Of a DNA stretch of 64,000 nt, positions 11,169-14,244 are shown one piece after another. The notes beneath the pieces were generated by a model. That model did no database searches and was not told where the DNA came from. It saw only the letters and a program-made list of their open reading frames with translations. Position 1 is the stretch's first letter. Each line of letters starts with the position of its first letter. Both the position numbers and the translations under genes were made by a program. Source of the stretch: Chlamydiota bacterium (lineage in GTDB: Bacteria; Auribacterota; Tritonobacteria; UBA1439); the NCBI GenBank assembly GCA_012729785.1, contig JAAYCL010000011.1, positions 1 to 64,000 on the forward strand. The letters are read 5' to 3'.

Positions 11169-12038
11169 TCAGATCGGGCCGTTCTTGAGCGGCAGCCCCC
11201 GGTCCTTCAGGTAAGACCCGTACGACTGCTTCCCCGCCTTCACGAACCTGAAGTAGGTCTCGATATCCCCTGCGGTGGGAGGGTCCTTGAGATCCTCGTG
11301 CAGGCGCCGGACGAAGTACCGCCCGTTCTCCGCGATGCGCCGCATCGTCTCCCCCTTGAAGAAATGCGCCGGCGCGCATTCGCAGAGCATCCGCACCTCG
11401 AAGACGAGGCGGTCGCCCGCGTCGCGGCCCGCGAAGAAGAAATCCCTGCTCGTGAGGTAGTCGCTGATGTACGAGGGGTGGTCGTGGTAGAAGGCCGTCT
11501 TCCCGTCGGCGCTCACGCCGATGCGCAGGCTCGTCTTGATCGTGTAGTCCGACGCCCCGAAGCCGCCGCGCGCCGTCACCTCGTAGGCGACCTCCTTGCC
11601 GCGGAGCGCCTCGGCGAGGTCGTAGCGGGAATCCGCCGCCTCCCTGAGAAAGTCGGGGGGATAGGTGAAACTCGACGCCCTGATCGACTGCGGGAACACA
11701 TACTCGTACAGCCCGGCGTCGCAGGCGTACATCACCACCAGATCGAGGGCGTCCGGGCGGTATTTCTCCGGCCACCCGTTCGTCGAGACCGACCAGCGGG
11801 CGATCATCGAGACGAGCGGCCACTCCTGCGTGAAACTGAACTCCGGCTCCGCGCCGGGCCGCGGGAACGCGGCGCGGAGCACCTCGTCCGGGTAGCAGGT
11901 TCGTCGCCCCAGAAAGTCGAAACAGAGCGAACGGTGGTCCGGCCCCCACGTTGCGGCGAGGGGCGCCCCCGCCCCGGCGCGGGGACAGGCCGCCGCGACA
12001 ACGAGGAACATCCCGACCGCGATCCCTCTTCCACGCAT
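11169..12038 (-). CDS. Secreted protein of unknown function
   Basis: 289 aa with a signal peptide (MRGRGIAVGMFLVVAAACPR). The mature part has scattered cysteines (LCFDFLGRRTCYP, MLCECAPAHFF) and many aromatic residues; no known domain is recognised. The start at 12038 is preceded by AAGGGGCGG. Upstream lies the divergent GluR0-like channel gene, downstream the small HExxH protein on the same strand. Possibly an envelope or periplasmic protein. Confidence 0.65.
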   Translation of the reverse strand: MRGRGIAVGMFLVVAAACPRAGAGAPLAATWGPDHRSLCFDFLGRRTCYPDEVLRAAFPRPGAEPEFSFTQEWPLVSMIARWSVSTNGWPEKYRPDALDLVVMYACDAGLYEYVFPQSIRASSFTYPPDFLREAADSRYDLAEALRGKEVAYEVTARGGFGASDYTIKTSLRIGVSADGKTAFYHDHPSYISDYLTSRDFFFAGRDAGDRLVFEVRMLCECAPAHFFKGETMRRIAENGRYFVRRLHEDLKDPPTAGDIETYFRFVKAGKQSYGSYLKDRGLPLKNGPI

Positions 12039-12181
12039 CGCCGCCCCTTTTTTTTCGCCTCGAACCGCCGCTATTGTGCCACAATCGGGTCCGCCCGGGG
12101 AGGATCCCGTACGGTCCGGGGATTTGCGGCCGCCGCGGGAAACGGGAAGCGAAAGGGCGCCCGGCGCGCCGCCCGATGGTG

Positions 12182-12187: not shown

Positions 12188-12216
12188 CTTCCCGGGAATC
12201 GAGGAACAGGCGGCGT

Positions 12217-13335
12217 ATGAACAGGACGCACCTTCCCGCGGCGGCGCGCACCCTCCTGGCCGCCGCCCTCTTCTCCACGACGCTTCTCCCCAACGCGGTG
12301 TGCGCCTTCGGGGCCAGGAGGCCGCTCCGCGTCGCGACGAAGCCGATCGCGCCGTTCGTGCTCCTGGAGCACGGGCGCCTCACCGGGTTCAGCATAGACC
12401 TGTGGGACGCCATCGCGCATAAGCTCGGCCGCGCCTACACGCTCGTCGACACCGGCACCACCCCCGCGCTCATCGAGGCGGTGCGCGACGGCGACGCGGA
12501 CCTCGGCATCGCCGGCGTCAGCATGACCTCCGAGCGCGCCAAGGTCGTCGATTTCAGCTGCCCCTACTTCATGTCCGGCCTCCAGATACTGGTTGAGCGC
12601 GGCGCGGTCACGCGCCACAGCGGCGTCGCGGGATACTTCCTCCTTCTCCTCACGGAGGCGGGCCATATCGCGCTCATCCTCCTGGCGTTCTTCTCGGTCG
12701 TCGCCGTCTTCGCGCATATCGTCTGGTTCTGCGAGCGGCACCACAACCCCGACTTCTCGCGCGGCTACCTCGCCGGCATCTACGACGCGCTCTGGTGGTC
12801 GGCGCAGACCTTCACGACGGTCGGCTACGGCGACAAGACCCCGCGCCGGCCGATCGGGCGGCTCTTCGGGATTCTCTGGATGCTCGTCGGCTGCATCCTC
12901 TTCTCCTACCTCACGGCGAGCATCACGACGCGCCTGACGCTGCGCGGCATCAACCTGGAAGGCGTCCGGGTGGCGGACCTCGTCCACTGGCGCGTGGCGA
13001 CGGTGAAGGGGAGCACCGCGGCGCAGTACCTCGCCGCCGAGATGATCCACCCGGATGAGTTCGACAGCCCCGAAGAGGCCTGCGCGGCACTCAAGAGCGG
13101 CCAGGTGGAGGCGGTCGTCTACGACTACCCGTTCCTCGCGTACTATGCCGCCCGCGAGGGGAAGGGGAAGGTGATGCTGGCGGGCCCGGTCTTCCACAGC
13201 GAGGCGTACGCGCTCGTCCTTCCCAGCGGCAGTCCGCACCGCGAGTCGATCAACCGCGCGGTCCTCGAACTGCTCGAGGACGGCACCTGGGACAAGCTCT
13301 CCCAGAAGTGGCTGAGGCCGCAGATCCGCCGCTGA
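12217..13335 (+). CDS. GluR0-like prokaryotic ionotropic glutamate receptor (K+ channel)
   Basis: 372 aa in the order signal peptide, S1 half of a type-3 amino-acid-binding domain (residues about 37-130, with the SMTSERAKVVDFSCPYF signature), two membrane helices flanking a pore loop (about 140-245), then the S2 half (about 248-372). The pore loop reads FTTVGYGD (Thr200-Asp206), the exact potassium selectivity filter. This topology is that of Synechocystis GluR0, an amino-acid-gated K+ channel and evolutionary relative of animal glutamate receptors. The ligand-binding Arg is conserved in the S1 signature. Monocistronic, with TATACT upstream. Ligand identity cannot be read from sequence. Confidence 0.92.
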   Translation: MNRTHLPAAARTLLAAALFSTTLLPNAVCAFGARRPLRVATKPIAPFVLLEHGRLTGFSIDLWDAIAHKLGRAYTLVDTGTTPALIEAVRDGDADLGIAGVSMTSERAKVVDFSCPYFMSGLQILVERGAVTRHSGVAGYFLLLLTEAGHIALILLAFFSVVAVFAHIVWFCERHHNPDFSRGYLAGIYDALWWSAQTFTTVGYGDKTPRRPIGRLFGILWMLVGCILFSYLTASITTRLTLRGINLEGVRVADLVHWRVATVKGSTAAQYLAAEMIHPDEFDSPEEACAALKSGQVEAVVYDYPFLAYYAAREGKGKVMLAGPVFHSEAYALVLPSGSPHRESINRAVLELLEDGTWDKLSQKWLRPQIRR

Positions 13336-13374: not shown

Positions 13375-14244
13375 GTGCCCGTCATCGAACCCGCGATACG
13401 GCCCCCCGCGGAGGCCGGAAGCTTCCTGCTCCAGGTCACGACCGGCTGCTCGGCGCACGGCTGCACCTTCTGCGGCGCCTACGCGGGAAAACCGTTCCGA
13501 TCCAAACCGGCGGGGGAGGTGGACGCCGACATCGCGGAGGAGCGGCGCGCCCGCCCCGGCACGCGGCGCGTCTTCTTGATGGACGGCGACGCGCTCGCCC
13601 TCTCCAACGCGCGCCTCGTCCCGGTCCTCGACCGGCTCCTCGAAGCGTTTCCGCTGCTCACCCGCGTGTCGAGCTACGCCTGCGGAGACCAGCTCGCCCA
13701 AAGGAGCGGCGAGGAGCTTTCCGCGCTCCGCGACCGGGAGCTCTCGCTCGTCTACCTGGGCCTGGAGAGCGGGAGCCGGGACATCCTCGAGCGCCGCCGC
13801 AAGCGCGCGACCGTCGAGGAGATGGTCGAGGGCGTGCGCAGGGCGGACGCCGCGGGGATACGGTCATCGGTCATCGTCCTCCTCGGCCTTGGCGGGAAGG
13901 AGCGCTCGGCGGAACACGTCCGCGAGACGGTACGCGCCCTCAACCGGATGCAGCCGCGTCATCTGTCGTTCCTCTCCCTCATGCTGATCCCCGGGACGCC
14001 GCTCTGGGAAGAGGCGCGGCGGGGCCGCTTTGTTGAACTCGACTCCGCCGGGCTCCTCCGCGAGGCGCGCGACATCCTCGCCGGACTCGACCTCCGCCGG
14101 ACCGTCTTCCGCTCCGACCACGCCTCCAACCACCTCTTCCTCGAGGGGCGCCTCCCGGCCGACAGGGACAAACTGGTGCGCGCCCTCGACCTCGCCCGTG
14201 CGGGAGGGCTGCCCACGCGGCCCGATTCCTCTCGAGGGCTGTGA
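13375..14244 (+). CDS. Radical SAM protein with CX4CX2C cluster motif
   Basis: 289 aa, GTG start with GGAG upstream. The cluster motif is GCSAHGCTFCGAYAGKPFR, with Cys25, Cys30 and Cys33: a CX4CX2C spacing seen in one branch of B12-independent radical SAM proteins rather than the standard CX3CX2C. Downstream features include YLGLESGSRDILE and IVLLGLGGKE, typical of the TIM-barrel of Elp3/HemN/MiaB-like enzymes. The substrate is unknown. It follows the channel gene by 39 bp on the same strand. It needs an anaerobic or low-oxygen cytoplasm and Fe-S assembly, which nifUS in this window could provide. Confidence 0.85.
   Translation: MPVIEPAIRPPAEAGSFLLQVTTGCSAHGCTFCGAYAGKPFRSKPAGEVDADIAEERRARPGTRRVFLMDGDALALSNARLVPVLDRLLEAFPLLTRVSSYACGDQLAQRSGEELSALRDRELSLVYLGLESGSRDILERRRKRATVEEMVEGVRRADAAGIRSSVIVLLGLGGKERSAEHVRETVRALNRMQPRHLSFLSLMLIPGTPLWEEARRGRFVELDSAGLLREARDILAGLDLRRTVFRSDHASNHLFLEGRLPADRDKLVRALDLARAGGLPTRPDSSRGL

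Follow-up and report, generated by a model that had tools for sequence, protein, structure and literature searches.

The window analysed here, a stretch of DNA 64,000 nucleotides in length, contained an open reading frame (ORF) on the forward strand which ran from ATG to TGA over 372 codons plus the stop, with no internal stop codon in the sequence as read (Table 1). A longer, 419-amino-acid version beginning at a GTG at position 12076 was rejected as only the mechanical maximum of the ORF, the predicted signal peptide beginning at the ATG at 12217; cleavage of this peptide is probably after VCA-30. The G+C content of the gene (0.688) and that of its third codon positions (GC3, 0.944) were in line with the neighbouring genes. 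A radical SAM gene (13375–14244) followed on the same strand after 39 bases, and a divergently transcribed gene on the complementary strand (11169–12044), encoding an apparently secreted protein with no Pfam family, had a common intergenic region with the ORF. The surroundings of 16 loci with K+-filter channels yielded no conserved partner gene, except between closely related pairs, as is expected for a self-contained channel. The ORF encoded the sole Ion_trans_2-type K+ channel found in the source genome, so that physiology could be cleanly attributed to it.

Table 1. Positions of the channel gene and its features in the window
Feature	Position	Strand	Basis
GAGGA, ribosome-binding-like site 11 bases 5' of ATG (putative)	12201..12205	+	sequence reading; inference
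GluR0-type channel gene	12217..13335	+	open ORF; PF00497 split around PF07885; AlphaFold pLDDT 88.5
Predicted signal peptide, residues 1–30	12217..12306	+	N-terminal hydrophobic peak and model helix 8–20
S1 lobe, residues ~36–127, R107 inside	12322..12597	+	aligned to NpGluR0 2PYY and Slr1257 GluR0
R107 codon, alpha-carboxylate-binding Arg	12535..12537	+	invariant in 91/91 aligned proteins
M1 transmembrane helix, residues 137–173	12625..12735	+	hydropathy and model
Pore helix, residues 184–201	12766..12819	+	model
K+ selectivity filter TTVGYGD, residues 200–206	12814..12834	+	sequence; Ion_trans_2 match
M2 helix, residues 212–246, with SYLTASITTRLT stretch	12850..12954	+	model
S2 lobe, residues ~250–369, with S266/T267 and D303	12964..13323	+	aligned to 2PYY
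S266-T267 codons	13012..13017	+	same in NpGluR0
D303 codon, alpha-amino-binding acid	13123..13125	+	kept in 90/91 aligned proteins

Pfam analysis revealed a family-3 solute-binding domain (PF00497, E 7e-27) which was split across residues 37–367 and interrupted at residues 159–240 by an Ion_trans_2 domain (PF07885; 60.6 bits, cut-off 22.5). The models PF10613 (Lig_chan-Glu_bd) and PF00060 (Lig_chan), which represent the ligand-binding and channel families of eukaryotic ionotropic glutamate receptors (iGluRs), likewise exceeded their own cut-offs. Hydropathy analysis demonstrated one peak for the predicted signal peptide and two for transmembrane segments (approximately residues 144–166 and 219–233). 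The AlphaFold model, obtained for a single chain from a 33-sequence alignment, had a two-lobed clamshell and a two-helix pore; it contained an N-terminal hydrophobic helix, and the M1, pore and M2 helices lay between two alpha/beta lobes. When this model was compared with the PDB using Foldseek, ligand-binding and transmembrane domain (LBD-TMD) chains of AMPA receptors came first over the whole length (approximately 370 columns, E 1e-23), and the ligand core of Nostoc punctiforme NpGluR0 (2PYY) was also among the top matches, with a TM-score of 0.91–0.94 normalised to the target. In the sequence comparison, 2PYY led the PDB matches (E 9e-52); Synechocystis GluR0 (1II5/1IIT) was matched at 1e-18. 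From the N-terminus, a predicted signal peptide was followed by the S1 lobe, M1, the pore helix, the filter, M2 and the S2 lobe. The split Pfam domain, hydropathy, predicted fold and Foldseek matches thus agreed on the complete S1-M1-pore-M2-S2 architecture that had been claimed for this gene, in which S1 and S2 flank two transmembrane helices and a pore loop as in the Group 1 (GluR0-type) class of prokaryotic iGluRs (Ger et al. 2010, PMC2950845). Within M2, T233 and T241 were conserved (alignment A1). This helix is the equivalent of eukaryotic M3, and its SYLTASITTRLT stretch resembles the iGluR gate motif SYTANLAAFLT.

The TTVGYGD filter was present exactly as predicted, and T198 ahead of it completed the TxxTVGYGD signature; the chance of this heptamer in a protein of the same composition was approximately 1e-6. 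A K+-channel filter within an Ion_trans_2 domain is also a feature of Group 1, and it suggests a K+-selective pore, a property which the presence of a filter alone does not prove.

A conserved Arg (S1) and a conserved Asp (S2) are further marks of Group 1 proteins. The original prediction depended on both being kept, and neither had been lost in the alignment (R107 and D303; Table 1), while the Ser-Thr pair was also retained, S266 in 84 and T267 in 82 of the 91 aligned proteins. In GluA2, R485 holds the alpha-carboxylate of glutamate, E705 its alpha-amino group and S654/T655 its side chain; we take R107 to correspond to GluA2 R485 and GluR0 R117, D303 to E705, and S266/T267 to S654/T655. R107, S102, S266, T267 and D303 were identical in NpGluR0, the ligand core of which was crystallised with L-glutamate (2PYY), and because of this identity L-glutamate is predicted as the most likely ligand. 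The Arg and Asp of the pocket are also common to general amino-acid binding proteins, which counts against reading the gene as a glutamate-gated channel.

Relatives were sought in 84,980 species genomes using one degenerate peptide pattern, with search alignments that had been tuned on viral contigs and were then reused; a scan of the genome collection with the single protein as query gave no match. The pattern yielded 162 encoded relatives, the best 80 of which were kept; by record title they included Cyanobacteria, Alpha-, Beta- and Gammaproteobacteria, desulfobacterial and other deltaproteobacterial lineages, Myxococcales, Chlorobium, Armatimonadaceae, Abditibacteriaceae, Phycisphaerales, Marinimicrobia and Chlamydiae. 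More relatives occurred on plasmids. The view that such proteins are rare and mostly known from cyanobacteria and a few proteobacteria could therefore not be upheld, and the family is much wider than was suggested by either the original prediction or a 2010 survey, which covered 22 prokaryotic channels (PMC2950845). Among the matches found, the nearest relatives were proteins of Thiotrichaceae, Desulfobacterales and Burkholderiales with 39–44% identity, 44% being the highest to any relative. Within its own phylum, a full-length homologue was present in two of 44 genomes, namely the source genome and a distant one (L005; 27–29% identity) in which the gene lay on a 3.5-kb contig starting with sequencing-adapter-like sequence. 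A metagenome-assembled genome titled Bordetella parapertussis (L039) and one of Burkholderiales (L086) had the same channel as each other, identical in the pore stretch; the species name of the former is probably wrong.

A filter of the TVGYG or TSVGYG type was carried by 16 of these best 80 relatives, 14 of which could be identified by automatic motif search and two (L039 and L086, VTVGYGD) by reading the pore alignment, and the filter was absent from most cyanobacterial relatives among the 80. In the pore alignment it was replaced by TQADEMP in the many Nostoc-type relatives and by VNGGFEE in rhodobacteral ones. Across relatives L019–L098 and L010–L017, the replacements at this position (TQADEMP, GQQPDSP, VNGGFEERVP, TSGKSP..RKN) looked unrelated to one another. 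A plasmid channel of Rhizobium tumorigenes (L011, 2878–3999) had a degenerate filter, TQASTGHRGP, yet it fell within a K+-filter clade, and its filter likely represents an independent loss.

In full-length trees, the window protein grouped with nine K+-filter GluR0-type proteins (support 95/84, and 94/88 once cyanobacterial GluR0 orthologues were added), clustering with other K+-filter members as Group 1 proteins do. The nine comprised two proteins from Thiotrichaceae, four from desulfobacterial or deltaproteobacterial lineages, one each from Burkholderiales and an Alphaproteobacterium, and one from a phage contig. Synechocystis GluR0 was represented by orthologues from two cyanobacterial genomes (L115 and L116; 74% identical in S2 and 86% in S1). 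The window protein lay outside this cyanobacterial clade, in a different K+-filter branch of the tree, and orthology to Synechocystis GluR0 was not supported. The closest relatives were not the cyanobacterial GluR0 proteins. All K+-filter sequences together with L011 fell on one side of a branch (84/77), and in the unrooted tree the window clade had the filterless proteins on one side and, on the other, GluR0 with the K+ proteins of Chlorobium/Alteromonas type. A tree of the ligand domains only gave no single K+ clade and a weaker window clade. On these domains, holding the ten members of the window clade together was not rejected (p-AU 0.35). In a separate test, the wider grouping, in which the window protein alone was joined to the GluR0/Chlorobium side, was not rejected either (p-AU 0.24). 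These results are suggestive of an intermediate position between K+-filter GluR0s and filterless forms, with a weakly supported deeper order.

The phage member of the clade was a complete GluR0-type channel of 355 amino acids with an STVGYGD filter, 34–35% identical to the window protein, found on a 395-kb tailed jumbo-phage contig (G059, IMG/VR IMGVR_UViG_3300032132_000001) at L018 407–1474, equivalent to L104 18001–19068 on the complementary strand. The contig also encoded an intein-split terminase, a portal-like protein, a helicase and parts of a DNA ligase, the intein and portal being recognised by sequence reading. As the channel gene was about 400 bases away from an end of the contig and slightly lower in GC, it may have been placed there by a chimeric join. 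A literature search for jumbo phage, glutamate receptor and potassium channel found no paper. On the same contig, L104 4536–5723 (complementary strand) encoded an adenylosuccinate-synthetase-like protein matching phrog_1211, named 2-aminooxy adenylosuccinate synthetase, with GSTGKG where cellular PurA has GDEGKG; its product is possibly PurZ, which would imply 2-aminoadenine (Z) DNA. Among modelled viral proteins, BFVD E3T502 of the giant virus Cafeteria roenbergensis virus, which carries the annotation of an ABC-type amino acid transporter, was matched by Foldseek with E 3e-26 over 383 columns, and since the whole model was matched it is probably an iGluR-like channel.

With a probability of approximately 0.88, the gene can be read as a stand-alone inner-membrane subunit of the prokaryotic Group 1 (GluR0-type) family, which would form a tetrameric K+ pore gated by an amino acid, most probably L-glutamate. 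The split PF00497/PF07885 arrangement, the fold, the filter and the ligand residues all fit the GluR0-type identity first proposed for it. In this reading, the signal peptide would export the subunit, S1 and S2 would form one two-lobed clamshell on the periplasmic side, and between the lobes would sit an inverted K+-channel pore made up of M1, a pore loop entering from the cytoplasm, and M2, with four subunits forming the pore. An alpha-amino acid would be held by R107 at its alpha-carboxylate, by D303 at its alpha-amino group and by S102/S266/T267; closure of the lobes would pull on the M2-S2 linker and open the K+-selective pore, and this opening might change the membrane potential or turgor. 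Its homology to GluR0, together with the positively charged loop between pore and M2, suggests that the N-terminus may lie outside, and by analogy the protein may work as Synechocystis GluR0 does.

A GluR0-type K+ channel could also have another alpha-amino acid (glutamine, serine, alanine or a hydrophobic one) as its natural ligand. This appears unlikely, though it deserves serious attention, as the alpha-amino and alpha-carboxyl groups are all that the Arg/Asp pair fixes, the sequence matches take in glutamine-binding proteins, K264 and Y302 stand where NpGluR0 has A and F, and, to judge from the title of a 2001 study by Mayer, crystals of GluR0 were reportedly obtained with serine in addition to glutamate. 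However, S266/T267, which lie around the side chain both in NpGluR0 and in iGluRs, and S102 are the same as in glutamate-bound NpGluR0. Constitutive opening, or gating by another factor such as voltage, tension or ionic strength, with the lobes serving mainly for assembly, is improbable. Synechocystis GluR0 transports K+ in E. coli, rescuing K+ uptake, and loses function upon lobe deletion or mutation of the dimer interface, both lobes being needed (PMC13099474), which would suit such a channel; conservation of the ligand-site residues across the 91 aligned proteins would nevertheless be needless for a purely structural lobe.

The matches to PF00497 and GlnH-type models, and the annotation of plasmid relatives as transporter substrate-binding proteins, might instead indicate the binding protein of an amino-acid ABC transporter, mis-joined or fused and with no channel. 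That reading was refuted by the architecture, the domain being broken in its middle by a complete Ion_trans_2 pore. No permease or ATPase gene adjoined the ORF, and the fold matched iGluRs over the whole length; practically no weight is left to this reading. Nor does the contig look like contamination carrying a gene foreign to the lineage of the genome. A channel homologue was absent from the other five genomes of the same family, and gene order around the shared radical SAM neighbour was not conserved with one of them (G003), where no channel lay beside that gene. Yet the GC3 was close to that of the neighbours, the adjoining radical SAM gene was 75% identical to its G003 homologue, and the contamination figure of the assembly was 1.07%, which make a foreign contig very improbable. 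Recent horizontal transfer was not supported by composition; since GC and GC3 matched the neighbourhood, a transfer, if there was one, either did not happen recently or had a similar genome as its source. A phage origin of the window copy was rejected, the matches in named phages being only partial matches to binding proteins, as was a plasmid origin, the plasmid relatives examined having no K+ filter.

Such channels were already known, and what is new is a further member in a lineage where they are unusual. Prokaryotic glutamate-receptor channels serve as a model for the origin of animal and plant receptors from a binding protein and an inverted K+ channel, and the window gene is a well-conserved, compact example outside the cyanobacteria. 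We tentatively propose, at somewhat less than even odds, that the window clade links the two prokaryotic channel classes, the K+ filter being ancestral and lost once toward the filterless class, and that phages may have helped to spread the genes; the clade keeps the filter, while in this view the closest affinity of its ligand domain would be with filterless proteins of the NpGluR0 type. As the filterless class is thought to be closest to eukaryotic iGluRs, the clade is useful for asking when the filter was lost.

GluR0 of Synechocystis sp. PCC 6803 (Slr1257) is a K+-selective glutamate-gated channel which shares with the window protein a signal peptide (predicted in the latter), the S1-M1-P-M2-S2 order, TTVGYGD and the ligand Arg/Asp, and both are without an N-terminal domain and M4. 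The window protein, in contrast, belongs to another K+-filter branch, is only 26–28% identical to the close Slr1257 orthologue L115, and has Ser-Thr (S266-T267) where GluR0 has Thr-Thr. Synechocystis GluR0 is located in the plasma membrane with its N- and C-termini outside, slows shrinkage after KCl upshock and needs Q127 for dimerisation (PMC13099474). This Gln aligns with C115 of the window protein, and because of the replacement the dimer contact must differ from that of GluR0. NpGluR0 (2PYY) has identical ligand-site residues, whereas full-length relatives of the Nostoc type carry TQADEMP and no K+ filter, from which the same is presumed for the full-length protein of 2PYY itself. The homologues in Thiomargarita nelsonii (L063) and Parabeggiatoa (L019), uncharacterised proteins of Gammaproteobacteria, were 44% identical near full length and had TTVGYGD and the same architecture. 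With eukaryotic iGluRs (AMPA, delta and NMDA), the window protein shares the LBD-TMD fold and connectivity, the Arg/acid ligand pair and an M3-like gate motif; unlike them, it is without M4 and the amino-terminal domain, and a K+ filter replaces the Q/R-site loop.
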